64,000 nt of DNA from assembly GCF_017916275.1 (NCBI RefSeq), contig NZ_JAFMST010000004.1, positions 186,001 to 250,000 of the forward strand, given 5' to 3'. The notes below the pieces were generated by a model, which ran no database searches, had not been told where the DNA came from, and saw only the letters and a list, made by a program, of their open reading frames with translations. How positions within the stretch are numbered: the first letter of the stretch is position 1; every line of letters starts with the position of its first letter. This DNA comes from Rubellimicrobium arenae (GTDB taxonomy: Bacteria > Pseudomonadota > Alphaproteobacteria > Rhodobacterales > Rhodobacteraceae). The position numbers and the translations under genes were made by a program. Below, in pieces: positions 1 through 19,351 of this stretch.

Positions 1-21
1 CGGGATGGATCAGGAGGTGGC

Positions 22-225
22 TCATTTGCCCTCGGGGGGTCGGGGGTTGAAGTCGAGGAAGAAGCCATAGAACGCGGCGGCTCCGATGGCTCCAAACAGG
101 ATGCCCCACATGGGCCCGCCCGTGGTGAACTCGACCACCGCCCAACCGAAGCACAGGACCACGATGACGACCCGGATCCAGAGCGGCCGGAAGAAGGGAT
201 GGTTGAAGTCGAACAGCCGGTTCAT
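22..225 (-). CDS. small two-helix membrane protein, unknown function
   Basis: This is a 67-residue protein that I do not recognise by name. A short N-terminal segment rich in Phe, Pro and Arg (residues 1-17) is followed by two hydrophobic stretches at about 18-34 and 40-57, so an inner-membrane hairpin is likely. The C-terminus is short and polar. The ATG at 225 has a GAGG five bases upstream. It lies 55 bases beyond the stop of iolD on the same strand, so it may be read from the end of the inositol operon. Nothing in the sequence ties it to inositol chemistry. Confidence 0.6.
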   Translation of the reverse strand: MNRLFDFNHPFFRPLWIRVVIVVLCFGWAVVEFTTGGPMWGILFGAIGAAAFYGFFLDFNPRPPEGK

Positions 226-280
226 CGGACCTCGCAGGGATGGGCGGCGGCCCCCGGGTCGTGGGGCCGCGCGTGGCGGA

Positions 281-2110
281 TCAGGTGCGGGCCTGGTCCT
301 TCAGCTTCTCCTCGTAGGCGGTCCGCTTGGCGCGGACCTCCTTGCGCTCGGAGACCTCGGGCACGGCCACATCCCACCAGTAGCCGCCAAAGGGGGTGGA
401 GGGATAGGGGTCGGTGTCGATGACGACGACCAGCGGCCCCTGCACCTCGTGCCGCCGCGCCAGCGCGGCCTCGAGCTCGGCGATGCTCCCGGCCTTGACG
501 GAGGTCGCGCCCATGGCGGCGGTATGGGCCGCGAAGTCGATGTTGCTGTTCGGGCCGCCATGGGCGTCCTTGAGCAGGTTGTTGAACTCCACCTGCCCCG
601 TGGACATCTGGAGGCGGTTGATGCAGCCGTAGCCCCGGTTGTCGGTGATCACGACCGTGATCTTCTGGCCCATCATCGCGGCGGTGGCGAGTTCGCTGTT
701 CATCATCATGTAGCTGCCGTCGCCCACCATGCAGATGACGTCGCGCGCGGGTTCAGCCATCTTGATGCCGAGCGCGCCCGCCACCTCGTAGCCCATGCAG
801 CTGAAGCCGTACTCCATGTGGTAGGACATCGGCCGCGTGCCCTTCCAGAGCTTGTGCAGCTCGCCCGGCATGGTGCCGGCGGCGCACATGACCACGGTGT
901 CGGGGCCCGAGGCGCGCTGCACGGCGCCGATGACCTGCTGGTCGGTCGGCAGGCCCGCATTGCCCTCGGGCGCGGCGGTGAGCGGGTCCACGTCGGCGAA
1001 CCAGTCGGCCTTGAGCCGGTCGCTGATCGGCCGGGCCTTGTAGCCCGAGAGCTGGCCGAGGAGCGCGGCAAGCCCCGCCTCCGCGTCGCAGCAGAGCGGC
1101 TCGGCCCCGTGCTTCATGGCGTCATAGGCGGCGACGTTGAGGCTCACGAGCTTGCGGTTCGGGCGCGAGAACAGCGCCCAGGAGCCGGTCGTGAAGTCCT
1201 GGAAGCGCGTGCCGACCCCGATCACGAGATCCGCGCCCGCGCAGGCGGCGTTGGCCGAGGAGGCCCCCGTCACGCCCACCGGCCCGAGGTTCAGCGGATG
1301 GTCCCAGGGCAGCACCGACTTGCCGGCCTGCGTCTCGACCACAGGGATGCCGGTCGCTTCCGCAAAGCGGCGCAAGCTGTCGGTGGCGTGGCCGTAGTGG
1401 ACGCCGCCGCCCGCGACGATGACGGGGGACTCGGCGGCCCGGATCAGGTCCGCGACCGACTGCACCTCGACCGGGTCGGGCTGCGGGCGGCGGCGGCGCC
1501 AGGTCTTGGGCGTGAAGAACGACTCCGGCCACTCGTAGGCCTCGGACTGGACGTCCTGGCAGAAGGCCAAGGTCACAGGCCCGCAGTCGGCAGGGTCGGT
1601 CATGGTCCGCAGGGCGCGCGGCAGCGCGGTCAGCAGCTGCTCGGGCCGCTCGATCCGGTCGAAGTAGCGCGACACGGGGCGGAAGCAGTCGTTGGCCGTC
1701 ATCGTGCCGTCGCCGAAGTCCTCGACCTGCTGGAGCACCGGGTCGGGGCCGCGGTTGGCGAAGACGTCGCCCGGCACGAACAGCACCGGCAGGCGGTTCA
1801 CATGCGCCAGCCCCGCCGCGGTCACCATATTGAGCGCGCCCGGCCCGATGGAGGAGGTGACCATCATGGCGTGGCTGCGGCCCAACTGCTTGGCGTAGGC
1901 AATGGCGGCGTGGGCCATGCCCTGCTCGTTGTGGCCGCGATAGGTCGGGAAGCTGTCACGCACCCCGTGCAGCGCCTCGCCCATCCCGGCCACGTTGCCA
2001 TGGCCGAAGATGGCCCAGCAGCCCGAGATGAAGGGCTGGCCGTCCTCGGCCAGTTGCACGGAAAGCCAGCGCACCATGGCCTGCGCGGCGGTGAGGCGGA
2101 TCGTGGTCAT
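281..2110 (-). CDS. iolD: 3D-(3,5/4)-trihydroxycyclohexane-1,2-dione hydrolase IolD
   Basis: IolD is a thiamine-diphosphate enzyme that opens the ring of 3D-(3,5/4)-trihydroxycyclohexane-1,2-dione, the third step of myo-inositol breakdown in the cytoplasm. The 609-residue length fits the family. The cofactor-activating Glu is E62 in a GHNEQG motif, and the ThDP/Mg-binding GDG motif is near residue 462, followed by an Asn-containing segment. It is the last recognisable catabolic gene of the leftward operon. Its ATG lies one base past the stop of the OsmC gene, so the two are surely cotranscribed. Other ThDP enzymes (acetolactate synthase) share the fold, but the operon with iolC and iolG fixes the assignment. 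Confidence 0.93.
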   Translation of the reverse strand: MTTIRLTAAQAMVRWLSVQLAEDGQPFISGCWAIFGHGNVAGMGEALHGVRDSFPTYRGHNEQGMAHAAIAYAKQLGRSHAMMVTSSIGPGALNMVTAAGLAHVNRLPVLFVPGDVFANRGPDPVLQQVEDFGDGTMTANDCFRPVSRYFDRIERPEQLLTALPRALRTMTDPADCGPVTLAFCQDVQSEAYEWPESFFTPKTWRRRRPQPDPVEVQSVADLIRAAESPVIVAGGGVHYGHATDSLRRFAEATGIPVVETQAGKSVLPWDHPLNLGPVGVTGASSANAACAGADLVIGVGTRFQDFTTGSWALFSRPNRKLVSLNVAAYDAMKHGAEPLCCDAEAGLAALLGQLSGYKARPISDRLKADWFADVDPLTAAPEGNAGLPTDQQVIGAVQRASGPDTVVMCAAGTMPGELHKLWKGTRPMSYHMEYGFSCMGYEVAGALGIKMAEPARDVICMVGDGSYMMMNSELATAAMMGQKITVVITDNRGYGCINRLQMSTGQVEFNNLLKDAHGGPNSNIDFAAHTAAMGATSVKAGSIAELEAALARRHEVQGPLVVVIDTDPYPSTPFGGYWWDVAVPEVSERKEVRAKRTAYEEKLKDQART

Positions 2111-2111
2111 C

Positions 2112-2525
2112 TCAGGAGTCCTCGAAGACGAAGGCGACCGGAAAGGCCGCCATGACGGAATTGGCGATGGTGGAGTCCGCGCAGGCGGCCTCGAAGCAGG
2201 CGCGCGCGGCCGAAGGATCGGCGGCCTCGACGCGGGCGCGGATGGTGGCGGCGATCACCCGCAGCGGCACGCCCGACAGGGTCGTCTCGACCTCCACCTC
2301 GACGGCGCCCAGCACGACCCCGCGCGCCTCGGCGGCGTAATGGAGATCGTTCCAGAAGCAGCCGCCCAGGGCTGCGGCCAGAAGCTCGCCGCCGTTGAAG
2401 CCCAGCCCCTGCCCGCCCGCGACCCCCTCGGGCCGGTCGGCGATCAGCGTGCGCGGCCCGCTGCGCCCCACCCCCGCCCGACTACCGGGCAGGTTGTGAA
2501 AACGCATGGACAGCGTGCGGGTCAA
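2112..2525 (-). CDS. OsmC-family protein inside the inositol operon
   Basis: This 137-residue protein has the OsmC/Ohr look: an N-terminal strand region, the GG-x-LLAAALGGC-like helix with a conserved Cys near residue 56, and a C-terminal half that would carry the second Cys at about residue 113. Family members reduce organic hydroperoxides with a two-cysteine mechanism. Its ATG overlaps the iolC stop (ATGA) and its stop is one base from iolD, so it is translationally coupled on both sides. An OsmC gene is not a standard part of the inositol pathway, and its role here is unknown. Protection against peroxide made by the nearby oxygenase genes is a guess. Confidence 0.82.
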   Translation of the reverse strand: MTRTLSMRFHNLPGSRAGVGRSGPRTLIADRPEGVAGGQGLGFNGGELLAAALGGCFWNDLHYAAEARGVVLGAVEVEVETTLSGVPLRVIAATIRARVEAADPSAARACFEAACADSTIANSVMAAFPVAFVFEDS

Positions 2526-4441
2526 GCGGCGGCCCCCACGGCCCCCCGCCCCGCACGGGCCTGATCCCAGGTCTGGGCCAGCGCGCGGAAGCGTTCGGCC
2601 ATCTGCGCCACGGCCTCGGCATCGGTCATCCGGCCACCAAGCCAGGCGCGGGCGGCGTCGGCAAAGATCGTGCGGCCCACGGCAAAGCCCTTGACCAGCG
2701 GCTGCCGGGTGGCCAGCGCGAAGCTCTGCGCCAGCTCGGCGGCGGGCGCGTCGAGGCCCAGCACCACGATGCCGCGCACATGCGGGTCGTGGCGGGTGAT
2801 CGCGTCACAGGCGTTGGTCCAGGCGGCCTCGGTCTTGAAGGGCTCGAGCTTCCACCAGTCGGGATAAAGACCCAGGCCATAGATGCGCTCGATGATCCGG
2901 GCCGTGGTGTCGTCATCGACGGGCGCCACCTTGGACGGTATGACCTCAAGGAGCACCTCGAGCCGGTTGCGGCGGGCGCTCGCGAACAGGCGGACCAGCG
3001 TGTCCTCCTGGTCGGCCCACATTTGGGCGTCGTCATCGGGGTGGCAGAAGCAGAGCACCTTGACCACGTTCTCGAGCGGCCACTCCGACAGCCCGCCGAA
3101 GTCCGGGCCGATCTCGGGCTCGAGCCGCAGCGGGCGCGAGCCGGGCCACTCGACGGGACGGCCGATCCAGAGCCCGGTGCCGGCCGCCTTGTAGAGCGCG
3201 TCCCGCCCCAGCCGCCCATCGCACAGGATGCCGTAGCCGGGCTGCCCGCCCGCGACCGCCTGCGCGGCCTCCAGGCACAGGAGCTTGAAGGCGCCGATCT
3301 TCTCCGCTGTCGCGCCCTCCATCTCCTCCAGCTGCTTGCGATGGTCGAAGGCGAAGACCCGCATCTGGTCCCAGGTGCCGTGGCGGTTCGTGGACCAGTG
3401 CAGCTGCTCGAGGTCGGCGTCCTTGCGAAGCGCCGGCGTCCTCACGCCGCGATCGAGGAACCACTGCAACTCGGTCAACGACGGATAGGCGGGCGTGCAG
3501 CCGTGGCGCGAGACGGCGAACGCGCCGCAGGCGTTGGCATACTTGAGCGCCACCGGCCAGGGCTCGCCGTCGAGCCAGCCCTTCAGGAGGCCCGACATGA
3601 AGCCGTCGCCCGCACCCAGCACGTTGAACACCTCGATGGGGAAGCCCGGCCCGGCCTCGCCGTCGTCCAAGGAGTCAGGCACCGCGCCGGTGAAGGCGAC
3701 CGCCCCCCGGGCGCCCCGCTTGCACACCAGCGTCGCGCCCGAAACGGCGCGAACGGCGCGCAGGGCCTCGACGGTGTTCGTGGAGCCGCCCGCGATGTGG
3801 AACTCCTCCTCGGTGCCCACGATCAGGTCGAAGAGGTGGAGGTGCGCCTGCAGCTTGGCCGTAACGGCGGCGCTTTCGATGTAGCGGCTCTCGCCGTCGC
3901 CGTGGCCGGCGAGGCCCCAGAGGTTCGGGCGGTAGTCGATGTCGAGCGCGGTCTGCGCGCCGTTCTCCCGCGCCAGCCGCAGCGCCTTCAGGACGGCAGC
4001 CTCCGTGCGCGGGTGGCTCAGGTGCGTGCCGGTGGCAACGACCGAGCGGGCCTCGGCGATGAACGCCGGGTCGATGTCATCCTCGCAGAGCGCCATGTCG
4101 GCGCAGTCGGCGCGGTAGAAGATGAGCGGGAACTGCTCCTGGTCGCGGATGCCGAGGATCACGAGCGCGGTCAGCCGCTCGGGGTCGGTCACCACGCCCC
4201 GCACGTCCACACCCTCGCGCGCCAGCTCCTCGCGGATGAAGCGGCCCATGTGCTCGTCGCCCACCCGCGTGATGAGAGCGGACTTGAGCCCGAGCCGAGC
4301 CGTCCCGGTCGCCATGTTGGTGGGCGAGCCCCCCACATACTTCTGGAAGGACCCCATGTCCTCGAGCCGGCCGCCCACCTGCGCGCCGTAAAGGTCCACG
4401 GACGAACGCCCAATGGTGATGACGTCGAGAGTCTTGGACAT
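2522..4441 (-). CDS. iolC: 5-dehydro-2-deoxygluconokinase fused to DUF2090 aldolase-like domain
   Basis: This 639-residue bifunctional protein has two parts. Residues 1 to about 330 are a PfkB-family kinase (IolC) with the GAGD anion-hole/catalytic-base motif near residue 275. It phosphorylates 5-dehydro-2-deoxygluconate. Residues from about 345 to 630 are a DUF2090 domain, a TIM-barrel relative of the LacD/IolJ aldolases, likely to split the phosphorylated product to dihydroxyacetone phosphate and malonate semialdehyde. This fusion is common in proteobacteria and would replace a separate iolJ, which is absent here. The ATG at 4441 is preceded by a GGGAGGC Shine-Dalgarno. The gene lies between iolG (14 bases upstream) and the OsmC gene (4-base overlap). 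Confidence 0.93.
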   Translation of the reverse strand: MSKTLDVITIGRSSVDLYGAQVGGRLEDMGSFQKYVGGSPTNMATGTARLGLKSALITRVGDEHMGRFIREELAREGVDVRGVVTDPERLTALVILGIRDQEQFPLIFYRADCADMALCEDDIDPAFIAEARSVVATGTHLSHPRTEAAVLKALRLARENGAQTALDIDYRPNLWGLAGHGDGESRYIESAAVTAKLQAHLHLFDLIVGTEEEFHIAGGSTNTVEALRAVRAVSGATLVCKRGARGAVAFTGAVPDSLDDGEAGPGFPIEVFNVLGAGDGFMSGLLKGWLDGEPWPVALKYANACGAFAVSRHGCTPAYPSLTELQWFLDRGVRTPALRKDADLEQLHWSTNRHGTWDQMRVFAFDHRKQLEEMEGATAEKIGAFKLLCLEAAQAVAGGQPGYGILCDGRLGRDALYKAAGTGLWIGRPVEWPGSRPLRLEPEIGPDFGGLSEWPLENVVKVLCFCHPDDDAQMWADQEDTLVRLFASARRNRLEVLLEVIPSKVAPVDDDTTARIIERIYGLGLYPDWWKLEPFKTEAAWTNACDAITRHDPHVRGIVVLGLDAPAAELAQSFALATRQPLVKGFAVGRTIFADAARAWLGGRMTDAEAVAQMAERFRALAQTWDQARAGRGAVGAAA

Positions 4442-4455
4442 GGGGTGCCTCCCTA

Positions 4456-5460
4456 TCAGCCGAGAACTTCGGAAACCTTCACGGCGCGGCCTTCCTGGGC
4501 CGACTTGAGCGCCGCGTCGGCCAGCGCGAGGGCCTTGAGCCCGTCCTCGCCCGTCGTGGGCGTCGCGCCCTTGGTGTTCACGGCCCGGATGAAGCCCGCG
4601 ATCTCGTTCGCGTAGGCCGCCACGTAGCGCGACATGAAGAAGTTGAGGAGCGGCGGCCGCGTGAAGCCGTTGGCGGTCGCGACCTCGATGTTCGCTTCGC
4701 GCATGTTCTCGGCGCTGACGGAGCCCTTGGAGCCCAGGATCTCGATCCGCTGGTCGTAGCCGTATGTGGCCCGGCGCGAGTTGGTGATGATCGCCTGCTT
4801 GCCCGAGGCGGTGCGCAGGATGACGTTCACCGAATCATAGTCGCCGAGTTCGCCGATCGCCGGGTCGGTCAGGACCGAGGCCTGCGCCACCACGGTCTCG
4901 GGCTCTTCGCCCAGGAGCCAGCGGGCCATGTCGAAGTCGTGGATGGTCATGTCGCGGAAAATGCCGCCCGACCGCTTGATGTAGTCCGCGGGCGGCGCGC
5001 CCGGGTCGCGGGAGGAGATGGTGACCATCTCGACGTCACCAACCGTGCCGGCGTCGATCGCGGCCTTCACGGCCATGAAGTCGGGATCGAAGCGGCGGTT
5101 GAAGCCGACCATCAGGGTCGCCCCGGTCTCCTCGACCACCTTGAGGCAGTCCTGGACGCGCTGGACGGACAGGTCCACCGGCTTTTCGCAGAACACGGCC
5201 TTGCCGGCGCGCGCGAACCGCTCGATCAGGTCGGCGTGGGTGTCGGTCGGCGTGCAGATCACCACCGCGTCGATGTCGGACGAGGCTTCGATGGCATCGA
5301 TCGTGCGGATGTCGCAGCCATATTCCTGGGCCAGCGCCTCGGCGGCGGCGGGAATGGCGTCCGCGACGGCCACGAGTTCGGCATTGGCGTCGGAGCGGAT
5401 GGCCCGCGCGTGCACCTTGCCGATGCGACCCGCGCCAAGAAGCCCGAATTTCACAGTCAT
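4456..5460 (-). CDS. iolG: inositol 2-dehydrogenase IolG
   Basis: IolG is a Gfo/Idh/MocA-family NAD-dependent dehydrogenase that oxidises myo-inositol to 2-keto-myo-inositol, the first pathway step. The 334 residues show the Rossmann motif GAGRIG at 9-14, EKP at 92-94 with catalytic Lys93, and Asp170 and His174 in the GG-x3-D-x3-H signature that matches the catalytic Asp and His of Bacillus IolG. The C-terminal alpha/beta domain is complete. It sits between the transporter ATPase and iolC in the leftward operon. The same family includes rhizobial MocA (scyllo-inosamine/rhizopine), so the true substrate may be another inositol isomer. Confidence 0.92.
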   Translation of the reverse strand: MTVKFGLLGAGRIGKVHARAIRSDANAELVAVADAIPAAAEALAQEYGCDIRTIDAIEASSDIDAVVICTPTDTHADLIERFARAGKAVFCEKPVDLSVQRVQDCLKVVEETGATLMVGFNRRFDPDFMAVKAAIDAGTVGDVEMVTISSRDPGAPPADYIKRSGGIFRDMTIHDFDMARWLLGEEPETVVAQASVLTDPAIGELGDYDSVNVILRTASGKQAIITNSRRATYGYDQRIEILGSKGSVSAENMREANIEVATANGFTRPPLLNFFMSRYVAAYANEIAGFIRAVNTKGATPTTGEDGLKALALADAALKSAQEGRAVKVSEVLG

Positions 5461-5484
5461 GATAGGTCCTTGCTTATGGATCGA

Positions 5485-5502
5485 CCCCCGCCTGCGCGGG
5501 GG
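5485..5502 (-). other. intercistronic stem-loop between iolG and transporter ATPase
   Basis: A perfect 7-bp stem (CCCCCGC with GCGGGGG) and a 4-base loop lie in the 74-base gap between the ATPase stop and the iolG start. There is no T-run after it on the minus strand, so it is more likely an mRNA processing or stability element than a terminator. Confidence 0.45.
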
Positions 5503-5534
5503 CCTGCCGGTTATTGCTGAGCCGGGGGCCGCGC

Positions 5535-6305
5535 CTAGAGGGCGGCCGCCGCCATGTTCTGGGTCTTGGCGCCGGTGATGTAGGCTACCACGTCCTGGCC
5601 GTCGGTCTCCTCCTTGCGGAGGTTGGCGACAATGCGGCCCCGGCGGAAGACCACGATCCGGTCCACGAGGTCGAAGACCTGCCGCATGTTGTGCGAGATC
5701 AGGATCAGCGGCTCACCGTTGTCCTTGAGCGTGCGGACGATGTTCTCGACCTGCGCGGTCTCCTGCACGCCCAGCGCCGCCGTGGGCTCGTCCATGATGA
5801 TGAGCTTGGAGGCGAAGGTGGCGGTCCGGGCGATGGCGACGCACTGGCGCTGGCCGCCCGACATGTTGCGGATGGTGCTGCCGAGGTTCGGGATCTTCAC
5901 CGCCGTCCGCTTCAGCGCGGCCTCGGTCGCCTGGCGCATCCCCTTGCGGTCGAGGATCGAGAAGGGCCCGAGGTTGAACAGGATCTTCTCGCGCCCCAGG
6001 AACAGGTTCGAGGGCACGTCGAGGTCGTCGGCAAGCGCCAGGTTCTGGAACACGGCCTCGATGCCGGCCTCGCGGGCGTGGAGGGGGCCCGCGAAGTCCA
6101 CCTCCTGCCCGTCGAACCACACCTTGCCCGAGGTCCGCCGCTCCACGCCGGTGATCTGGCGCACGAAGGTGGACTTGCCGGCGCCGTTATCGCCCATGAT
6201 GGCCACATGCTCGCCGCGGCGCAGCTCGAAGTTGGCGTCGACCAGGGCGTGCACGCCGCCGTAATGCTTGGTCAGGCCTTCGGTCTTGAGAACGATGTCG
6301 GACAT
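5535..6305 (-). CDS. sugar ABC transporter ATPase (probable inositol importer)
   Basis: This is a 256-residue single-domain ATPase of the CUT2 family. It has Walker A GDNGAGKST at 38-46, an SGGQ signature near residue 141 and a Walker B ending in MDEPT. Classical CUT2 ATPases (RbsA, XylG) are two fused domains. This short form is the FrcA-like type, which works as a dimer. With the adjacent permease and binding protein it should energise uptake of inositol or a derivative. The ATG at 6305 has a GGAGGA just upstream. It is 10 bases from the permease stop. Confidence 0.9.
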   Translation of the reverse strand: MSDIVLKTEGLTKHYGGVHALVDANFELRRGEHVAIMGDNGAGKSTFVRQITGVERRTSGKVWFDGQEVDFAGPLHAREAGIEAVFQNLALADDLDVPSNLFLGREKILFNLGPFSILDRKGMRQATEAALKRTAVKIPNLGSTIRNMSGGQRQCVAIARTATFASKLIIMDEPTAALGVQETAQVENIVRTLKDNGEPLILISHNMRQVFDLVDRIVVFRRGRIVANLRKEETDGQDVVAYITGAKTQNMAAAAL

Positions 6306-6315
6306 GGGGTCCTCC

Positions 6316-7392
6316 TTAGCCGCGGCTGCTGCGGCGGCGCTGCCGCCAGACGTCGAGCACCACGGCGCCCACGATGATCGCGCCCTTCACCATCTCCTGG
6401 TAGTAGGCGTCGAGCTTGAGGAAGGTGAAGCCGGAGATGATCACCCCGAAGATCAGCGAGCCGAGCACCGTCCCGATGATCGAGCCGCGCCCGCCCGAGA
6501 GCGACACGCCGCCGATCACGGCCATGGCGATGGCATCGAGTTCGTACATCACGCCCATGCCGGCCTGCGCGGTCAGGTTCTTGGACGACAGGACGATGGC
6601 GGCCACCGCAGCCAGGAGCCCGGCGATGCTGTAGACCAGGACCTTGTGGCGCTCGACGTTGATGCCCGACATCCGCGCGGCTTCCTCGTTGGAGCCGATG
6701 GCGTAGCAGCGCTTTCCATAAAGCGTGTACTTGAGCATCAGGTGGAACAGGACGGCGAGCGCAAGGAAGATCACCACCGGCATCAGGCCCTTGCCGATCC
6801 CGGCGAAGGACTCGGTCGGGAAGGAGATCGGCTCGCCCTTGGTCCACCACTTGGCCACGCCGCGGGCGGTCACCATCATGCCCAGGGTGGCGATGAAGGG
6901 CGGGATCTTAGTGTAGGCGATCAGCGACCCGTTGATCAGGCCGGCCAGGAGACCGCACCCCAGACCCACGATCACCGGCACGATCACCGGCAGGTCCACC
7001 CAGCCCTGTTCCAGGAACACGGCCTTGGGGTTCGGGTTGCCGTTCACCATCGCGACCTGCGCGAAGCTCATGGCGATCATGGCGGTCGCGCCCACGACGG
7101 AGCCCGCGCTCAGGTCGATGCCGCCCGAGATGATGACCTGCGTGATGCCGATGGCGATGATGCCGACGATCGACACCTGCAGGATGATGATCTGCAGCCG
7201 CGCCTGGTTGAAGATCGTGTCGACGTTGTCCCGCGTATTGAGCAGGAAGCTGTCGCCGATCAGGATGCGCCCCAACAGCTCGAAGGCGGCGATGATCAGC
7301 ACCAGGGCAATCAATACGTTGAGTTCCTGCGGCATGTGCCGCTTGGAGTGGTCGTAGGTCAGCCCCCCCACCCCGAATGTCGTCTGCGCCAC
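6316..7392 (-). CDS. sugar ABC transporter permease (probable inositol importer)
   Basis: This is a 358-residue inner-membrane permease of the RbsC/XylH (BPD_transp_2) family, with about eight to ten hydrophobic segments and the family's GGIDLSAGSV-like loop near residues 90-100. It would form the channel of the importer with the preceding binding protein and the following ATPase. The N-terminus has about 25 polar residues before the first membrane segment. A strong stem-loop separates it from the upstream binding-protein gene, which fits the usual excess of binding protein over membrane parts. Confidence 0.9.
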   Translation of the reverse strand: MAQTTFGVGGLTYDHSKRHMPQELNVLIALVLIIAAFELLGRILIGDSFLLNTRDNVDTIFNQARLQIIILQVSIVGIIAIGITQVIISGGIDLSAGSVVGATAMIAMSFAQVAMVNGNPNPKAVFLEQGWVDLPVIVPVIVGLGCGLLAGLINGSLIAYTKIPPFIATLGMMVTARGVAKWWTKGEPISFPTESFAGIGKGLMPVVIFLALAVLFHLMLKYTLYGKRCYAIGSNEEAARMSGINVERHKVLVYSIAGLLAAVAAIVLSSKNLTAQAGMGVMYELDAIAMAVIGGVSLSGGRGSIIGTVLGSLIFGVIISGFTFLKLDAYYQEMVKGAIIVGAVVLDVWRQRRRSSRG

Positions 7393-7456
7393 GTCGCTGC
7401 CTCCTAGCCTAGCGCGGGCCGCGGGTCCCCCTCGTCCCCGCGATTCCCGGAACGTG

Positions 7457-7480
7457 GAGGCGGCGCCCTTGCGCCGCCTC
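7457..7480 (-). other. strong stem-loop between binding-protein and permease genes
   Basis: A perfect 10-bp stem (GAGGCGGCGC with its complement) closes a 4-base loop in the 111-base gap between the binding-protein stop and the permease start. No T-run follows. In transporter operons such hairpins protect the upstream mRNA end and partly block read-through. I infer that role here. Confidence 0.6.
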
Positions 7481-7503
7481 GCGTCGGACCACGACGGTCC
7501 GGA

Positions 7504-8448
7504 TCAGTTCTTCTGAAGGAACTGGTCGATGTTGGCGGGCGTCACGAGCTGGAAGGGGATGTAGACCTTCTGCTCCACGCTCTCCCCGCGGGCGAGCGAA
7601 AGGGCGGCATCCAGCGCGCCCTTGCCCTGGCCGGCCGCGTCCTGGAACACGGTCGCGTCGAGATCGCCGGACTGCATGGCGGACAGGGCGTCCTGCGTGG
7701 CGTCGATGCCGGCCACGATCACGTCTTCCATGGCGATGCCCGAGGCCTTCATCGCCTGGATCGCGCCGATGGCCATTTCGTCGTTGTTGGCGACGAGGGC
7801 GTCGAACGGCGTGCCGGTCGACAGCCAGTTGGTCATCAGGTTCTGGGCCTGGTCACGCGACCAGTTCGCGGTCTGCTGGTCGATGATGTTGAGCGTCACG
7901 CCGCAGTTGCCCGATTCCATCACGTCGTGGATGTCCTGGGTCCGCTGGACGGCGGCCTGGTTCGACAGCTCGCCCTGCATGACGTAGATGTCGGCGCTGT
8001 CCTTGCCCGCTTCCTTGAGGATGCGGCAGACTTCCATCGTCTCGAGGGTGCCGGACTCGACCTCGTTCGAAGCGACGAAGGCCTGGTTGTCGGGCAGCGT
8101 GTCGACGTTGATCGGCTGGCGGTTGACGTACACGAGCGGCACGCCGGCGGCGGCGGCGGCATCCGACATCGCCTGCGTGGCCGAGGTGTCGACCGGGTTC
8201 ACGATGATCGCGTCGACGCCCGAGGCGATGAAGTTGTTGATCTGGTCGAGCTGCTTGGCCACGTCGTTCTGCGCGTCCTCGACCTGGACCTCGACGCCGT
8301 CGAGCGTGCCGGCGTAGTCCTGCAGGCCGTTGCGCAGCACGGTCAGGAAGTTGTCATCGAACAGCGCCATCGAGACGCCCACCGTCTCGGCCATGGCGCT
8401 GGTCGACATGAGGCCAGCGAACCCGGCCAGGATCAGGGTCTTCTTCAT
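7504..8448 (-). CDS. periplasmic sugar-binding protein (inositol/rhizopine type)
   Basis: This is a 314-residue periplasmic binding protein of the RbsB (peripla_BP_4) family. Residues 1-22 are a Sec signal peptide that ends in SAMA-E. Two alpha/beta lobes follow, with DAIIVNPVDTS-like and VAGIDA-like ligand-site segments. I chose the ATG at 8448 because it starts the signal peptide and has GGGAGGA seven bases upstream; the frame stays open much further upstream but without a signal. Its place beside iolG and a MocC-like isomerase suggests an inositol, inosamine or methyl-inositol ligand (compare IbpA and MocB). The exact ligand cannot be read from sequence. Confidence 0.9.
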   Translation of the reverse strand: MKKTLILAGFAGLMSTSAMAETVGVSMALFDDNFLTVLRNGLQDYAGTLDGVEVQVEDAQNDVAKQLDQINNFIASGVDAIIVNPVDTSATQAMSDAAAAAGVPLVYVNRQPINVDTLPDNQAFVASNEVESGTLETMEVCRILKEAGKDSADIYVMQGELSNQAAVQRTQDIHDVMESGNCGVTLNIIDQQTANWSRDQAQNLMTNWLSTGTPFDALVANNDEMAIGAIQAMKASGIAMEDVIVAGIDATQDALSAMQSGDLDATVFQDAAGQGKGALDAALSLARGESVEQKVYIPFQLVTPANIDQFLQKN

Positions 8449-8542
8449 GTAGTCCTCCCAATGCGGCGTCCGGCTCGCCGCGTTTCGTTCTAGGCCGGAA
8501 GGGTCCCCTCCCCGGGGCACCCCAAACCTCGGGCGGCTCTCC

Positions 8543-9361
8543 TCAGGCCGCCTTCGCCGCGAGCTGCGCGGCGATGAAGTCCATCGAGCGGCGCAGGTCG
8601 CCGATCGGGTCCTTGGACGCGTGGGTTTCGGGCGCGAAGGCCTCGAAGCTGATGGCGCCACGGTAGCCCGCCGCTTCCAGGGCGCGGATCTGCTCGACGT
8701 TGCCGAGCCGGTCGGCGCCGTCCACCAGCACGCGGTGCTGGTCGCCCATCTCGCCCACCGCCAGCGCGGGGTCGACGACGCCCGAGATGTGGATGATGCC
8801 GGTATGGGCCGGGAACAGCGGCCCGCCATGCGCGAGATGGTGGTGGAAGGTGTCGTGCACGAGCTTGAAGCGGCCTGTGGCGCCCAGCGCCTCGATCGCC
8901 TCCACGGCCTCGGCCTTGTAGCGCAGCGCGCAGATCTCAAAGCCCAGGGGCTCGACCATGCCGACGAGGCCGTGATCCTCGAGCATCGGCTTCAGTTCCT
9001 TGAGCGCCACCCGCAGGTTCGCCTGACGCTCGCCGTTGCCCATGCCGCCGTTGTCGTTGCGGGGAATGAGGCTCACCGCCTCGGCACCGCAGGCCACCGC
9101 GATCTTCATGAGGGCGAGGGCTTCCTCGCGCTTGGCGTCGGACCAGTCGTTGAAGCGCTTGACCTCGGCCAGCGCCAGGATCCGCAGGCCCTTCTCGCGG
9201 GCCAGCTCCCCGGCCTTCTCCGGGGCCATCTCGTCGAAGAGCGGCTGGGGCAGGTCGTTGCGGACCTCCACACCCACGCAGCCCAGCTCCTGCGCGGCAT
9301 CGAGAAGCTCGACGAAGGACATGCGGGCGACGGTCATGTGGTTGATGGCGAATGGCAGCAT
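8543..9361 (-). CDS. TIM-barrel isomerase, IolI/MocC-like
   Basis: This 272-residue protein belongs to the xylose-isomerase-like TIM-barrel (AP_endonuc_2) family. The metal-site residues expected in the family are visible: an EPLGFE segment near 138-143, HDTFHHH near 171-177, an HISG segment near 193 and SFEAF near the C-terminus. IolI (2-keto-myo-inositol isomerase) and the rhizopine protein MocC belong here; the sequence looks closer to these than to IolE (inosose dehydratase). It is the first gene after the LacI regulator in the leftward operon. It could interconvert inosose isomers and so widen the range of inositols used. Confidence 0.82.
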   Translation of the reverse strand: MLPFAINHMTVARMSFVELLDAAQELGCVGVEVRNDLPQPLFDEMAPEKAGELAREKGLRILALAEVKRFNDWSDAKREEALALMKIAVACGAEAVSLIPRNDNGGMGNGERQANLRVALKELKPMLEDHGLVGMVEPLGFEICALRYKAEAVEAIEALGATGRFKLVHDTFHHHLAHGGPLFPAHTGIIHISGVVDPALAVGEMGDQHRVLVDGADRLGNVEQIRALEAAGYRGAISFEAFAPETHASKDPIGDLRRSMDFIAAQLAAKAA

Positions 9362-9475
9362 TCGGATCCTTCCTCCCGCGGGGCCGTCGCCGTTGATCGA
9401 CGCTCAAGAAGCCGCGCTTTTCCCGATGCACCCTTGCCGCCCAGCACCGCCCCGAGTCAACGCGGGCCCGCTGGA

Positions 9476-9527
9476 ATTCTATCAGCCGTGATGCCTTGGC
9501 AATCACCGCAATGACGAAATTCCGTCA
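9476..9527 (-). promoter_or_regulatory. candidate promoter and operator region of the inositol operon
   Basis: The 163-base gap after the regulator holds two dyads. One, at 9488-9506, has arms GTGAT and ATCAC around a TGCC/GGCA core. The other, at 9512-9527, is TGACG-AAATTC-CGTCA, symmetric at 14 of 16 positions, and overlaps the regulator's stop codon. On the minus strand a -35-like TTGCCA (9497-9502) and a -10-like TAGAAT (9476-9481), 15 bases apart, overlap the first dyad. This suits repression by the LacI-type protein encoded next door. The spacing is short and the promoter is tentative. Confidence 0.4.
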
Positions 9528-10556
9528 GACGGATTCGGGAAGCACGAGCTCGGGCCGAAGGAAGTGCTGACCCGCGACCTCCGAGGGGCCGCTGCGGGCA
9601 GCGTCCGCCATGAGCCGCACCAGATCGTCGCAGAGCTGCGCCAGGGGCGTGGCGATCACCATCGTCAGGTAGCCGTCCACCAGGGCCGCCCGCGACTCCG
9701 GCGTCACCTCGTTCACCACGAGGCATACGTCGCCGGGCTTGCGCGCCTCCCGCATGGCGGCGATGGCTCCCTCCATGCCGCCGCCGGCCACATAGACGCC
9801 GCGCAGTTCCGGATGACGGTCGAGGAGATCGAGCATCGCCTCGTAGGTGAGCTGCCGGGTTTCCAGGTTCACCAACGTGTCCAGGATCTGGAACTGCGGG
9901 GCATATTCCCGGAACCACCCGCGGAACCCGGCCTCGCGCAGCTCATGGCCGTGCCAGCGATAACCCCCGACGAAGACGGCCACCTTTCCGGGCCGATGCG
10001 CGGCCATCCCGATGACCGAAGCCGCGATGCGGCCCACCTTCAGGTTGTTGAGGCCGAGGTAGTTCTGCCGGATTCCCTGGGCAAAGTCGTTGAGCAGCGC
10101 AAAGGTCGGCACCCCCTCCGCCTTCAGCGCCGTGACCGCGTCGGTGACGGATGGATGGGTGACCGCGCTGGCCGCCACGGCATCGACCCGGCCCTTCATG
10201 CCCAGCATGAGGTTCGCGAAGTCCGAGGGCGCCTGCGAGGCCGCGAACTCGACCACGGCCTTGACGCGCAGGCCCGTCGCGCGCCGCGCCGCCGCCTCGA
10301 TCTCGGCGGCGAAGTTCTGGTAGAAGGCCTGCCGCTCCTTATGGAGCACCACGCCCATCCGCAGGACCGGAAGATCCGTCTGGAGCCGCTGCGCGATCAG
10401 CGGGGCCGCGTGGTAGCCGATGCGGCGGGCCGCCTCGTAGACCTTCTGGGCCGTGTCCTCGCGCACCTGCTCGCGGCCATTGAGCACGCGGTCAACGGTG
10501 GCCTGGCTCACGCCGGCGGCCTTGGCGACATCCTGGATGGTGGGGCGGCGTGCCAT
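9525..10556 (-). CDS. LacI-family transcriptional regulator of the inositol/moc-like locus
   Basis: This is a 343-residue repressor with a LacI-type helix-turn-helix at residues 5-24 (TIQDVAKAAGVSQATVDRVL) and a periplasmic-binding-protein-like sensor domain from about 60 to 335. It sits between the leftward inositol operon and the rightward desaturase/Rieske/PanB-like operon, so it can control both. The sensor domain is of the sugar-binding type, and an inositol-related effector is likely. Rhizobial moc loci use a GntR-type MocR instead, so the control differs. The ATG at 10556 begins the HTH directly. Confidence 0.88.
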   Translation of the reverse strand: MARRPTIQDVAKAAGVSQATVDRVLNGREQVREDTAQKVYEAARRIGYHAAPLIAQRLQTDLPVLRMGVVLHKERQAFYQNFAAEIEAAARRATGLRVKAVVEFAASQAPSDFANLMLGMKGRVDAVAASAVTHPSVTDAVTALKAEGVPTFALLNDFAQGIRQNYLGLNNLKVGRIAASVIGMAAHRPGKVAVFVGGYRWHGHELREAGFRGWFREYAPQFQILDTLVNLETRQLTYEAMLDLLDRHPELRGVYVAGGGMEGAIAAMREARKPGDVCLVVNEVTPESRAALVDGYLTMVIATPLAQLCDDLVRLMADAARSGPSEVAGQHFLRPELVLPESV

Positions 10557-10560
10557 AATT

Positions 10561-10619
10561 CGACAGTCCTGACGATTTCACCTCATGTTAGGACCGCATC
10601 TCTGAGGCTTCGTGACGAA
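10561..10619. promoter_or_regulatory. candidate operators in the divergent regulator/desaturase gap
   Basis: The 152-base gap between the regulator and the desaturase gene has an imperfect dyad at 10561-10574 (CGaCAGtcCTGaCG) and a perfect odd dyad TTCGTGACGAA at 10609-10619. The half-site TGACGA occurs at 10570 and 10613 and also in the dyad at the other end of the regulator gene. The shared half-site suggests one repressor binds all of them. I could not fix a clear -35/-10 pair. Confidence 0.35.
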
Positions 10620-10708
10620 TTGTCCAGCAAAGATGTTGGGCGGCCAAGGAAAGTCACGATATGCAGCCCGCCAACAGCCCCGAACCGCTGAACAACAGGA
10701 GGAGCCCC

Positions 10709-11803
10709 ATGGGGACGCGGAACTACAGCCTTTTGGGTCCTGATGGCCAGCGCGCCGTCGAAACGGGCCTTGCCGCGGCCGAGTGGTACCACACCGAGGT
10801 GCCGCGCAAGGTCATGAAGGAACTCATGCAGCGCAAGGATGGTCCCGCCATCCGCGACACGATCATCTGGCTGGGTGCGATGGCCCTTCTGGCCGGGATC
10901 GCCGTGGCGCTCTGGGTGAATGGGCATCCGTGGCTGTCGATCCCCTTCTGGATCGCCTATGGCGTGCTGTACGGATCGGCCTCGGACTCCCGCTGGCACG
11001 AATCCTCGCATGGCACCGCCTTCAAGACGCCGTGGATGAACAACGTCGTCTACCAGATCGCCTGCTTCATGATCGTCCGGAACCCGCACACCTGGCGCTG
11101 GAGCCATGCGCGGCACCACACGGACACCTACATCGTCGGCCGCGACCCCGAGATCGCGATCATGCGCCCGCCCGAGCTGTTCCGGCTGTTCCTGAACTTC
11201 TTCGGGATCATCGACGCCTGGAACGGCTGGACCCGGATGCTCTACAATGCCGCCGGCAGGATCCATCCCGAAGAGGCGACCTTCATCCCCGAGACCGAAT
11301 GGTCCAAGGTCATCCGCGTCGCCCGGATCTGGACGGCCATCTACGCCGTCACGATCATCGCGGCCCTCTACCTCCAGTCGGTCGTGCCGCTCCTGCTGAT
11401 CGGAGGGCCCCGGCTCTATGGCGCGTGGCACCATATCATGACGGGCCTGCTGCAACACGGCGGCCTGGCCGACAACGTCATCGACCACCGGCTGAATTCG
11501 CGCACCGTGTACATGAATCCGATCTCGCGGTTCATCTACTGGAACATGAACTACCACGTGGAGCATCACATGTTCCCCATGGTGCCCTACCACGCGCTGC
11601 CCCGGCTGCACGAGATCATCAAGCACGACCTGCCGACGCCGAACAATTCGATCGCCGAAGCCTTTGGCGAGATGTGGCCCGCGCTCAAGCGCCAGCTTCA
11701 GTACGAGGACTACTTCCTCAGGCGCGAGCTGCCCTCCACCGCCAAGCCCTACCGCGAGGACTTCCACGTCTCCGCGCTTGGCGGCGTCGTGGCGGCCGAA
11801 TGA
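10709..11803 (+). CDS. fatty acid desaturase-like di-iron protein, MocD-like
   Basis: This is a 364-residue integral membrane di-iron protein of the fatty-acid-desaturase superfamily. Three His clusters are present: HESSH at 97-101, HARHH at 133-137 and HVEHH at 283-287. Hydrophobic pairs lie at about 52-90, 113-124 and 205-232. The ATG at 10709 has AGGAGG seven bases upstream; the frame is open earlier but without a good ribosome site. Pairing with a Rieske ferredoxin matches rhizobial mocD-mocE, which are needed for O-demethylation of the rhizopine 3-O-methyl-scyllo-inosamine. A true lipid desaturase is the alternative, but the inositol context argues for a sugar-derived substrate. Confidence 0.85.
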   Translation: MGTRNYSLLGPDGQRAVETGLAAAEWYHTEVPRKVMKELMQRKDGPAIRDTIIWLGAMALLAGIAVALWVNGHPWLSIPFWIAYGVLYGSASDSRWHESSHGTAFKTPWMNNVVYQIACFMIVRNPHTWRWSHARHHTDTYIVGRDPEIAIMRPPELFRLFLNFFGIIDAWNGWTRMLYNAAGRIHPEEATFIPETEWSKVIRVARIWTAIYAVTIIAALYLQSVVPLLLIGGPRLYGAWHHIMTGLLQHGGLADNVIDHRLNSRTVYMNPISRFIYWNMNYHVEHHMFPMVPYHALPRLHEIIKHDLPTPNNSIAEAFGEMWPALKRQLQYEDYFLRRELPSTAKPYREDFHVSALGGVVAAE

Positions 11804-11869
11804 CGAACCAGGGCCGGGCTCGCTCCCGGCCCGCCGACAACAAACAGGACAAGGGAAGAGGAGCCTAAC

Positions 11870-12184
11870 ATGCCCCAATGGGTGGACGCCTGCGCGGTGG
11901 ACGAGATCGACGAGGAGGACGTGATGCGCTGGGACCACGGCGGGCGGACCTACGCCATCTACCACAGCCCGGACGGCGAGTTCTTCTGCACGGATGGCAT
12001 GTGCACCCACGAGAACGTCCACCTCGCGGGCGGGCTCGTGATGGACTACGTGATCGAGTGCCCCAAGCACAACGGCCAGTTCGACTACCGCACCGGCCAG
12101 GCCAAGCGCGCCCCCGTTTGCGTGAACCTCGCCACCTACCCCGCCAAGGCCGAAGGCGGCCGCGTCCTCGTGCAGGTGGGCTGA
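11870..12184 (+). CDS. Rieske [2Fe-2S] ferredoxin, MocE-like
   Basis: This is a 104-residue stand-alone Rieske ferredoxin. The cluster ligands are C45-T-H47 and C64-P-K-H67, exactly the CxH...CxxH pattern. It is soluble, with no signal peptide, and would pass electrons to the upstream di-iron oxygenase. The ATG at 11870 follows an AAGAGGAG ribosome site; 66 bases separate it from the desaturase stop. No ferredoxin reductase (MocF) is found nearby, so electrons must come from a reductase elsewhere in the genome. Confidence 0.93.
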   Translation: MPQWVDACAVDEIDEEDVMRWDHGGRTYAIYHSPDGEFFCTDGMCTHENVHLAGGLVMDYVIECPKHNGQFDYRTGQAKRAPVCVNLATYPAKAEGGRVLVQVG

Positions 12185-12186
12185 AC

Positions 12187-12996
12187 ATGCGTCCCTCCTC
12201 CAAGCGCTGGACCGTCGCCGACCTTCTGGCCAACCGCGGCACCCACCAGTTCGCCATGCTGCGCGTCGAGACCCTCGACGAGGCCGCCGCCGCCGAGGCC
12301 GCGGGCGTGGAGCTGTTCTCGGTTCCGCCCGAGATGCTGATGGACCCCCGGTTCCGTCAGGTCGCGCCCAACGCCTTCGCCTTCCCGGGCATGAACTTCT
12401 ACGACATCGGCGACACCGCCGACTTCCTGAAATGGGCCTTTCCGCTCTGGAAGCATGGGGCGGACGCCGTCTATTGCTCCGGCTCGCTCCAGACCGTGCG
12501 CGCGCTCACCGACAACGGCATCCCCGTCTGCGGCCATGTGGGCCTTGTGCCATCCAAGTGCACCTGGACCGGCGGATTCAAGGCCGTGGGCAAGACGCTC
12601 GACAGCGCCAAGTACCTTTGGGATCAGTGCAAGGCCTACGAGGAGGCCGGCGCCTTCGCCGTCGAGATCGAGGTCGTTCCCCAGCAGATCACAGAGCTGA
12701 TCGCCGAACGGACGAACCTGTTCCTGCTGTCGATGGGCGGCGGGGCCAAAGGCCACGCGCAGTATCTCTTCACGGATGATGTGCTGGGCCAGAACACGGG
12801 CCGAATCCCGCGGCACGCCAAGGTCTATGCCGACTTCAAGGCCGAGTTCGCGCGCCTGCAGCAGATGCGGGTCGAGGCCATGCGCGCCTTTGCCGACGAC
12901 GTCCACAACGGGGCCTACCCGGCAGAGGCCTATGTCGTGAACGCCAAGGACGAGGTCGTGGCCCAGTTCCGCGAGTGGCTGGCCGCGAACGCCTGA
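12187..12996 (+). CDS. PanB-fold protein with altered active site
   Basis: This is a 269-residue member of the ketopantoate hydroxymethyltransferase (PanB) fold. The central segment (PVCGHVGLVPSK, 113-124; GGFKAVGK, 129-136) and the general-base Glu (E162 before VVP, equal to E. coli E181) are clear, as is the C-terminal PRHAK region at 208-212. However, the metal ligands equal to E. coli D45 and D84 and the substrate Lys112 appear to be replaced (S-V-P-P near 45-48, an FPGMNF segment near 66-71 and Y96). It is therefore unlikely to make ketopantoate. The ATG starts two bases after the Rieske stop, so it is part of the oxygenase operon. Its reaction is unknown. Confidence 0.8.
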   Translation: MRPSSKRWTVADLLANRGTHQFAMLRVETLDEAAAAEAAGVELFSVPPEMLMDPRFRQVAPNAFAFPGMNFYDIGDTADFLKWAFPLWKHGADAVYCSGSLQTVRALTDNGIPVCGHVGLVPSKCTWTGGFKAVGKTLDSAKYLWDQCKAYEEAGAFAVEIEVVPQQITELIAERTNLFLLSMGGGAKGHAQYLFTDDVLGQNTGRIPRHAKVYADFKAEFARLQQMRVEAMRAFADDVHNGAYPAEAYVVNAKDEVVAQFREWLAANA

Positions 12997-13000
12997 CGGC

Positions 13001-13648
13001 TCAGGCGATGCGCAGACGGACCGAGGGTGCGCCGTCCAGCGTGCCCTCCAGCCGGTCGCCGGGCTCGACCGGCCCCACCCCGGCGGGGGTCCCGGTCATG
13101 ATGAGATCGCCCGGCCCGGGCGCATAGAGCGTCCGCAGATGCGCCAGCAGCGCGTCGATGCCGTGGATCATCTCGGTCAGCGGGGCCTGCTGCCGCACCT
13201 CGCCGTTCACGGTCAGGCGCATCACGGCCTCCGGAGCGGGCCGCCCCTGAACCAGGGCCCCGATCACCGCAGAGCCTTCGAAATCCTTCGCGGTGTCCCA
13301 CGGCTTGCCCGCCGCCTTGGCCACCGCCTGCAGGTCGCGGCGGGTCATGTCGAGGCCCACGCCCCAGCCCCAGACCTCGCCCCCTTCCCCCAGCGCCAGG
13401 ACCAGTTCGACCTCGTGGTGCAGGTCCCGCGTCCCCGGAGGATATGGCAGGACAGAGTCGTCGGGGATCAGCCCGAAGGGCGACTTGGTGAACCAGAACG
13501 GGGCGTCGGTTTCCACCGGATTTCCCATCTCCCGCGCATGGGCGGCGTAGTTGCGGCCCACACAGAAGATCCGGGCGACCGGGTAGGTCAGGTCCGCCGC
13601 CGCGACCGGCAGTTCGGGCAGGGAACGCGCGGGAAAGACTTGGGGCAT
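13001..13648 (-). CDS. fumarylacetoacetate hydrolase family protein
   Basis: This 215-residue enzyme has the FAH C-terminal-domain fold (as in acylpyruvase and 2-keto-3-deoxy-acid dehydratases). Visible marks are RIFCVGRNYAAHA near 27-39, the metal ligands in HHEVELVLAL near 77-86, GVGLDMTRRDLQ near 96-107 and the TGTPAGVG loop near 188-195. Such enzymes cut or hydrate 2-keto acids with Mg in the cytosol. It faces the PanB-like gene tail to tail with only four bases between, so it is a separate unit. A link to the oxygenase operon is possible but not shown. The ATG at 13648 is the first good start. Confidence 0.85.
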   Translation of the reverse strand: MPQVFPARSLPELPVAAADLTYPVARIFCVGRNYAAHAREMGNPVETDAPFWFTKSPFGLIPDDSVLPYPPGTRDLHHEVELVLALGEGGEVWGWGVGLDMTRRDLQAVAKAAGKPWDTAKDFEGSAVIGALVQGRPAPEAVMRLTVNGEVRQQAPLTEMIHGIDALLAHLRTLYAPGPGDLIMTGTPAGVGPVEPGDRLEGTLDGAPSVRLRIA

Positions 13649-13774
13649 GTGACACCTTTGATGGATCTGGTCAGCGTCGCTCCGCCGCCGAGGACGCCTC
13701 GTGGTTCAGCGCACGGGCGGGGGACTTGGGCGCCCGGCGGCAGCGGAACGCCCCCCCGGGGCCAGCAGAAGGCC

Positions 13775-14338
13775 TCAGCGCAGGCCGTTGGCGGCGATAT
13801 CCTGCGCGAGCGCCAGGGTCGCCTGTCCGCGGGCCGCCGCGATGGCGCCAGGTCCCGGATCGGCGGGCAACGGGATGCGGATGCGGAACTCCCGCGCACG
13901 GTCCCGGCCCGATCCGTCCTGGGACGCCACATAATACTGGCCGCGCATGAGGAAGGCGCCCGAGCTGTCGGCCACCATCTCGGCCACGCGCACGTCGACC
14001 TGCGCCTCGGCAGGTTCCTCGAAGGGCCAGGGTTCCGGCACGACGCGGGCGCCGGTCACGCCACCCAGGGCGCGGGCCAGGTCCAGCGTTTCGGCCCGCG
14101 CGGGATCGTCGGCCCAGCGCACCCGGCGAAGCTGGGTCAGCGAGTTGCCGGGAACCTGCACGTAGACATCGTCTGCCGCCGCGTATTCGGGCAGCGACAC
14201 GTCGAGCAGCTCCACCGTGCCGAAGGAGGAGCCGACCCGGGCCGGCGGCTCGGCAGGGGGCACGGCCAGCCGCAGGGACTGTGGCCCGCAGGCGGCCAGG
14301 AGCACGAGGGCGGCGATGCTCAGCGGACGGAGCGTCAT
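13775..14338 (-). CDS. pqiC: PqiC-type outer-membrane lipoprotein
   Basis: This is a 187-residue lipoprotein of the ABC-transport auxiliary (DUF330/PqiC) family. The signal ends in a lipobox LLAAC with the acylated Cys near residue 17. The rest matches the family's alpha/beta fold. It follows the MCE protein gene by one base and completes a pqiA-pqiA-pqiB-pqiC operon that spans both membranes. PqiC forms the outer-membrane ring around the tip of the PqiB needle. I chose the ATG at 14338 because it starts the lipoprotein signal; the frame is open further up. Confidence 0.87.
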   Translation of the reverse strand: MTLRPLSIAALVLLAACGPQSLRLAVPPAEPPARVGSSFGTVELLDVSLPEYAAADDVYVQVPGNSLTQLRRVRWADDPARAETLDLARALGGVTGARVVPEPWPFEEPAEAQVDVRVAEMVADSSGAFLMRGQYYVASQDGSGRDRAREFRIRIPLPADPGPGAIAAARGQATLALAQDIAANGLR

Positions 14339-14339
14339 G

Positions 14340-17329: not shown

Positions 17330-17334
17330 ATGGG

Positions 17335-17973: not shown

Positions 17974-18054
17974 GTCCCTGCCCTTCCTGTCCGCGGCAAG
18001 ACTTAGGCCCCCGGGGCCGGAAGGCCAAGCCGGGGGCTCACGGCTCCGGCAACG

Positions 18055-19251: not shown

Positions 19252-19351
19252 CGGATCTCCGGTGCGTGCGAGGGGGCTTTCCTGAATTGGGGAGCCCTCG
19301 CGCCCAAGCGCAAGGGCCACCCGCGGGAAAAATCCTCAACCCCTGTCAACC

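Follow-up and report, generated by a model that had tools for sequence, protein, structure and literature searches.

In Rubellimicrobium arenae an inositol operon stands, apparently under one genetic switch, with an oxygenase-ferredoxin-PanB-like gene trio that probably removes the methyl group from methyl-inositols such as pinitol

Genes of the locus

We analysed a 64,000-nucleotide stretch of Rubellimicrobium arenae DNA (the window), part of contig 34 of a 4.55-Mb genome. It contains a locus in which an inositol operon and a divergent gene trio flank a gene for a LacI-family regulator (9525-10556, minus strand; PF00356 and PF13407). Between the two operons the regulator is of the LacI family rather than MocR; no search was made for MocR elsewhere. 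Leftward from LacI, on the minus strand, lie genes for a TIM barrel of the AP_endonuc_2 family (8543-9361), a substrate-binding protein (7504-8457), an ATP-binding cassette (ABC) permease (6316-7392; PF02653, 157 bits), a sugar-type ABC ATPase (5535-6305; top NCBIfam matches YtfR, 192 bits, and RbsA, 182 bits, all under cut-off), the inositol 2-dehydrogenase IolG (4456-5460; TIGR04380, 427 bits, cut-off 355), the kinase IolC with a fused DUF2090 domain (2522-4441; NF047869, 708 bits, cut-off 600; TIGR04382, 400 bits), an OsmC-like protein within the iol operon (2112-2525; PF02566, 46.9 bits), the trihydroxycyclohexanedione hydrolase IolD (281-2110; TIGR04377, 895 bits, cut-off 715) and, adjoining the IolD side, IolB, whose start falls within the opening bases of the window and most of which extends past its edge. 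IolE, a further inositol gene of the genome, is on contig 37 (386 bits).

Rightward from LacI, on the plus strand, the trio encodes a MocD-type di-iron membrane protein of the FA_desaturase fold (10709-11803; PF00487, 120 bits) with three His boxes (H97xxxH101, H133xxHH137 and H283xxHH287), a MocE-family Rieske [2Fe-2S] ferredoxin (11870-12184; TIGR02377, 173 bits, over the cut-off of 136) and a PanB-like protein with an altered metal site (12187-12996; PF02548, 128 bits). Open reading frame and family profile searches recovered the genes of the initial annotation and bore out its calls of IolG and of a MocE-type ferredoxin; the ATG of the PanB-like gene lies two bases past the MocE stop, as it had said.

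Of the two operon proteins that it named after rhizopine (moc) genes, one label did not hold and the other gained no support. The binding protein (PF13407, 178 bits), called MocB-type, scores 38.6 bits with the rhizopine-binding family NF052284 (cut-off 420). Its closest solved relative is 4yo7 (211.8 bits; the next scores 134.5 bits), whose ligand we take to be myo-inositol; a literature search on 4YO7 found nothing. The barrel, called MocC-type, did not significantly resemble an IolE-type protein encoded beside a MocR gene, used as query in place of MocC itself (E 0.72), and had no NCBIfam match at E ≤ 0.01. It is IolI-like instead (PF01261, 88.7 bits): its closest solved relatives are 4hgx and 2q02 (95.7 bits), followed by IolI of Bacillus subtilis (1i60, 23.2 bits). 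The entry 2q02 is presumably Salmonella STM4435 (iolI2). IolI interconverts 2-keto-myo-inositol and 1-keto-D-chiro-inositol.

A candidate LacI operator

The LacI and MocD genes point away from each other; in 61 of 63 such pairs the gap, taken from match end to match end, is 110-193 bp. The palindrome TGAYRN6YRTCA occurs in 32 of 73 LacI|MocD gaps, from which it was derived, against a mean of 0.23 after dinucleotide shuffling. In an independent test on the barrel|LacI gaps it was present in 28 of 62 (shuffle mean 0.16). The tighter form TGAYGN6CRTCA had 66 matches, 55 of them within 21,896 of the 1,235,781 bases searched (1.8%).

Candidate sites flank LacI on both sides in the window. A match to the pattern, TGACGAAATTCCGTCA, lies upstream of the transporter/iol operon (9512-9527; exact), and a second candidate is found in the LacI|MocD gap (10570-10585; one mismatch to the loose pattern). 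The sequence TGAYGNNATTNCRTCA has one exact place in the genome, at this locus, and five further places with one mismatch. Some rhizobial relatives retain the operator, for instance TGATGGAATTCCATCA in Rhizobium johnstonii. Because the candidate operator stands on both sides of LacI, the trio and the inositol genes look like one LacI regulon; binding of LacI to these sites is inferred.

Distribution of the trio

With the PanB-like protein alone as query, at least 534 named loci matched, of which the 80 best were examined, several of them clipped by contig ends. The nearest named relatives were Rubellimicrobium species. MocD was present in 73 of the 80 loci, MocE in 76, LacI in 65, the binding protein in 57 and the barrel in 54; IolG (31), a reductase (19) and IolC (4) were less frequent. 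Among the 56 loci whose upstream sequence reached 8.8 kb or more, 43 had the barrel, the binding protein and LacI, and 53 had MocD and MocE. Both Rhodobacterales and Hyphomicrobiales have the arrangement repeatedly, beyond what chance would give, and the same gene set is found on a Marivivens plasmid. The genes, their conserved order and the common candidate operator are direct observations.

Of 149 genomes surveyed in the family, 30 have a MocE above cut-off, 37 the PanB-like protein and 61 a MocD relative (both E ≤ 1e-20, the latter counting other desaturases), and 78 have IolC (73 over cut-off). A wider sample of the class had the PanB-like protein in 21 of 385 genomes (E ≤ 1e-30). Of the 59 PanB-like matches in the family, 53 were mapped (the six weakest were left out), together with 52 MocD matches (at least 40% identity), 51 MocE matches (50 at 88 bits or more and one fragment from the genome itself) and 52 IolC matches, the last from genomes with a MocD, MocE or PanB-like match only. 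Thirty-six of the 53 PanB-like matches have a MocE or MocD match no more than 5 kb away. The initial annotation saw no place for the PanB-like gene in known moc loci; that it has none beside such oxygenases is not supported, since 33 of the 51 MocE-bearing clusters hold a PanB-like match, and the pairing is also found in Rhizobium etli, R. johnstonii and Sinorhizobium meliloti.

From the family survey 47 of 48 chosen regions were fetched, the window's own excluded; the genes of L015, L045 and L049 were located by tblastn. These loci fall into at least three kinds of context. Inositol contexts have the barrel, IolG and IolC, IolB or IolJ (for example L036, L055, L056 and L060), one of the last three adjoining trio copies also in L048 and L052. 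DUF4432-type sugar contexts are found in L018, L029, L037, L045 and L059. In L016, L038, L050 and L057, MocE and the PanB-like protein accompany an FA_hydroxylase (PF04116), with no MocD match. In L039 an alpha-amylase-family gene adjoins the trio. With copies also at loci for other sugars, the trio is a module of general use, of which the window locus is the inositol version.

Some loci had further genes. L030, L034, L038, L050 and L052 encode a second TIM barrel (TIM12, AP_endonuc_2), placed after MocE and before the PanB-like gene. In L163 (6060-11560) relatives of MocD, a reductase, MocE, the PanB-like protein, a second MocD and FA_hydroxylase form one run; the host, an alphaproteobacterium with a 1.6-Mb genome of 30% G+C, also carries PanB-like genes in tandem next to PhyH relatives (L167). 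In three 1.4-Mb genomes of one genus (L150, L151, L153) the PanB-like gene adjoins a MocD relative (36%).

MocD, MocE and the reductase

In the MocD tree a branch with 100/100 support separates the MocD of the window and 49 other rows from 14 other desaturase-fold rows; none of the 14 is a proven lipid enzyme, and five adjoin a weak MocE-like ferredoxin. The initial annotation had made its demethylase idea depend on MocD not grouping with true lipid desaturases. MocD did stand apart, from comparators none of which is a proven lipid enzyme, and with that limit we rejected a lipid desaturase identity. No solved relative of MocD was found among 177,635 sequences at E ≤ 1.

The reductase of R. etli, taken as the MocF type, had no match in positions 1-20000 of the window; the closest homologue in the genome (contig 38) is 40% identical.

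The whole of mocE lies in a block of roughly 355 bp (window 11848-12201) that contig 33 carries as a second copy with 96.3% DNA identity (L016, 8853-9204), where MocE adjoins an FA_hydroxylase gene and another PanB-like gene; the two MocE proteins gave a 100% tblastn match. The shared block points to gene conversion or a recent duplication. Contig 33 also has a 115-bp piece of the same mocE behind a different MocD relative (L017, 10540-10654; 96.5%), apparently a broken ferredoxin gene.

The PanB-like protein

The third protein of the trio scored 103 bits with the equivalog TIGR00222 (cut-off 207.55) and was therefore not called PanB (3-methyl-2-oxobutanoate or ketopantoate hydroxymethyltransferase, KPHMT). 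It shares the fold family. In the alignment with Escherichia coli PanB, H136 and E181, to which we ascribe catalytic roles, are retained as H117 and E162, whereas D84 and E114 are changed to G68 and S98; D45 falls outside the alignment. D45, D84 and E114 are, as we take it, the metal ligands of E. coli KPHMT. Eight residues (R57, D93, H117, E160, E162, D198, P208 and H210) are invariant in alignments of 41 and 54 PanB-like relatives. A separate canonical PanB of the same genome (contig 22, 304.6 bits) has G, V and F in place of three of them, D93, E160 and H210. The R. etli orthologue, equated with RHE_PE00443 through plasmid p42e and its annotation, is stated to fail to complement a panB mutant, in a passage marked 'data not shown' (PMC3082293). 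On the TIGR00222 score, the failed complementation and the canonical PanB elsewhere in the genome we rejected a housekeeping PanB.

In the class-wide sample 12 of 20 distant PanB-like loci had MocD, MocE, FA_hydroxylase or PhyH/TauD or, at L162 alone, a Rieske ring-hydroxylating oxygenase. The Pfam comparison covered one or two neighbours per locus (none at L149 and L161); genes were taken as the longest open reading frames, calls that may err at high G+C. Across 32 loci the distances of MocD and of the PanB-like protein are correlated (r 0.65, a value that none of 2000 permutations reached), with host kinship not removed. The presence of PanB-like relatives beside several kinds of O2-using enzymes suggests that the PanB-like protein handles the released one-carbon unit.

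A broader claim is put forward tentatively: this branch of metal-site-altered KPHMT relatives, separate from PanB, might serve oxidative demethylation generally, acting with at least four unrelated kinds of O2-dependent oxygenases and passing the one-carbon unit (formaldehyde or the hemiacetal R-O-CH2OH) onward, perhaps to tetrahydrofolate.

Comparison with known systems

Bahar and coworkers reportedly proposed in 1998 that the oxygenase and the Rieske ferredoxin of the rhizopine pathway demethylate a methyl ether, the product entering the inositol pathway. A literature search for rhizopine with mocD and mocE found nothing. The rhizobial mocDEF and mocCABR genes are described as transcription units (PMC10107442), and in the published passages on mocDEF the PanB-like gene is unmentioned. 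The likeness of the window locus to the rhizopine genes is only partial: it extends to the MocE family and a MocD-type protein, so named for its three His boxes and MocE partner (the MocD of strain L5-30 was not the comparator). The window locus differs in having LacI in place of MocR, an IolI-like barrel, another binding protein and a PanB-like third gene; rhizopine loci have MocF, and the window locus has none. With no MocB, no MocR as its regulator, a barrel without significant likeness to the IolE-type query and no MocF in the first 20 kb, the label 'moc-like' is not supported.

Also close to the trio are operons on R. etli p42e, R. johnstonii pRL11 and S. meliloti pSymB, in which LacI is divergent from MocD, MocE, a reductase and the PanB-like gene (LacI 52-54%, MocD 71-73%, MocE 66-68% and PanB-like 54% identical to those of the window). 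The barrel is found behind LacI in two of the three. They differ by the extra FAD reductase, and the fetched stretches had no iol match.

Oxidative O-demethylation of a methoxy sugar is also described for marine bacteria, where a P450, not a membrane di-iron protein with a Rieske ferredoxin, demethylates 6-O-methyl-galactose and gives formaldehyde (PMC10033563).

Neighbouring genes

The OsmC-like gene lies between iolD and iolC and overlaps iolC by four bases. An FAA_hydrolase-family gene (PF01557, 13001-13648) ends head-to-head with the PanB-like gene. Past IolB (L248, 1-7164), the next genes resemble glycogen metabolism, as judged from their translations by eye.

Discussion

The reading that we favour, with some confidence, is that one LacI regulon imports and degrades a methylated inositol, above all D-pinitol, and that MocD and MocE demethylate it. 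The initial annotation had proposed such an O-demethylase feeding the iol pathway. Its moc label found no support; the shared LacI and candidate operator together with the recurring arrangement support O-demethylation of a methyl-inositol, and the 100/100 MocD branch is in line with it. The ABC transporter would import the methylated inositol. By analogy with the model of MocDE in rhizopine use, MocE would pass electrons to MocD, which would hydroxylate the O-methyl group, and the resulting hemiacetal would break into free inositol and formaldehyde. Going by their families, IolG would oxidise the ring, the IolI-like barrel would interconvert inosose isomers, and IolE, IolD, IolB and IolC would complete the breakdown. 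The most likely role of the PanB-like protein would be to deal with the one-carbon product (formaldehyde or the hemiacetal), perhaps by transfer to tetrahydrofolate.

The conserved IolI-type isomerase points to D-chiro-inositol ethers rather than rhizopine, so that D-pinitol is the likeliest substrate. In Rhizobium mesoamericanum exposed to Mimosa root exudate, mocDEF homologues are reported to be up 1.53-2.11x, an ABC operon 4-4.7x, and iol genes also up (PMC5789663); these genes correspond to ours by name. The passages on the exudate give pinitol as its most concentrated compound (145 uM), and the authors read the induction as possible rhizopine use (PMC5789663).

Several observations weigh against the demethylation of a methyl-inositol as we propose it. 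Many trios lie in non-inositol sugar loci, and the search for the trio beside iol genes, proposed in the initial annotation, gave a divided answer: 8 of the 16 MocD matches with at least 65% identity have an iolC-type kinase within 12 kb. On the tree of MocD the inositol label shows only weak clustering: it needs 9 changes where shuffled labels need 11.8 on average, and 19 or 25 of 500 shuffles were equally low, in a label and distance analysis that left out five MocD rows, from four divergent loci, and six rows of the PanB tree. Fewer than half of the gaps carry an operator match, the two S. meliloti loci carry none, and the operator is in both gaps at only 13 of 61 loci, which indicates that the consensus is incomplete. 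The locus has no MocF, the nearest homologue being the 40% identical one on contig 38, and the O-demethylase role of MocDE is a model for which no assay was found in the literature searched. The PanB-like protein lacks two ligands of the metal used by KPHMT. It is not essential, since two genomes (G020 and G025) have MocDE and no PanB-like match at E ≤ 1e-20; Rhizobium tubonense (L235), where a second-copy MocD is apparently cut short, was left out of this evidence for its missing PanB-like gene. Finally, an oxygenase or MocE was unseen in 8 of the 20 distant PanB-like loci (L149, L154, L156-L158, L160, L161 and L166), where few neighbours were examined; this lowered our confidence very slightly.

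The strongest competitor, which we hold to be distinctly less probable, is that the trio acts on a methyl-inositol of the myo series (ononitol, sequoyitol or bornesitol). The demethylation logic would be identical, and IolG is by family a myo-inositol dehydrogenase. Ononitol is given as the main product in pea (PMC8730688). A conserved IolI-like barrel, however, would be needless for myo-inositol. It is less probable again that MocDE hydroxylates or desaturates the ring, or that another sugar is the substrate and the trio is merely co-regulated with the iol genes. The fold indicates di-iron oxygenation only, and trio copies stand beside DUF4432, alpha-amylase-family and other sugar genes; on the other side, the trio shares its candidate operator with the iol genes, and the transporter and IolG are conserved beside this subfamily. 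Moreover, differing oxygenase folds have the same PanB-like partner, which argues for a common small product.

PF02548 membership would fit a pantothenate enzyme, or one with the inositol ring as substrate. We consider this quite unlikely: the genome has its own canonical PanB, the orthologue does not rescue a panB mutant, and relatives adjoin oxygenases in loci for other substrates. Still less likely is a true moc locus for rhizopine (3-O-methyl-scyllo-inosamine), even though the MocE family, a MocD-type oxygenase, IolG and iol genes are common to moc loci. The score of the binding protein and the LacI regulator speak against it. Only 2 of 385 genomes have a rhizopine-binding protein over cut-off (L085 and L086); both have iol genes, and neither has a MocD, MocE or PanB match in the approximately 20 kb fetched. 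On the binding protein score, these two contexts and the missing reductase match in window 1-20000 a rhizopine locus was rejected. That MocD is a membrane-lipid desaturase standing here by chance, as its PF00487 fold and a weak match to DesB (38.6 bits, cut-off 500) might suggest, is hardly credible given the tree split from the 14 desaturase-fold rows, none a proven lipid enzyme, its dedicated MocE and the sugar context.

Pinitol and ononitol are described as widespread in legumes (PMC8730688). At the level of titles and abstract openings, the literature searched names no bacterial genes for demethylating either, and the main text of an iol survey has zero occurrences of pinitol, moc or desaturase (PMC9430895). 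Within that literature the regulon, the corrected family identity of the PanB-like protein in this setting and its tie to several kinds of oxygenases are new. With a defined regulon and a candidate operator, the demethylation question can be put to a direct test, for which R. etli, R. johnstonii and S. meliloti are suitable as well. For annotation, a '3-methyl-2-oxobutanoate hydroxymethyltransferase' adjoining these MocE genes is not PanB. It may be a partner, so far overlooked, of oxygenases that demethylate, and if so, a dedicated formaldehyde-channelling part would have been concealed by the name of a vitamin enzyme.

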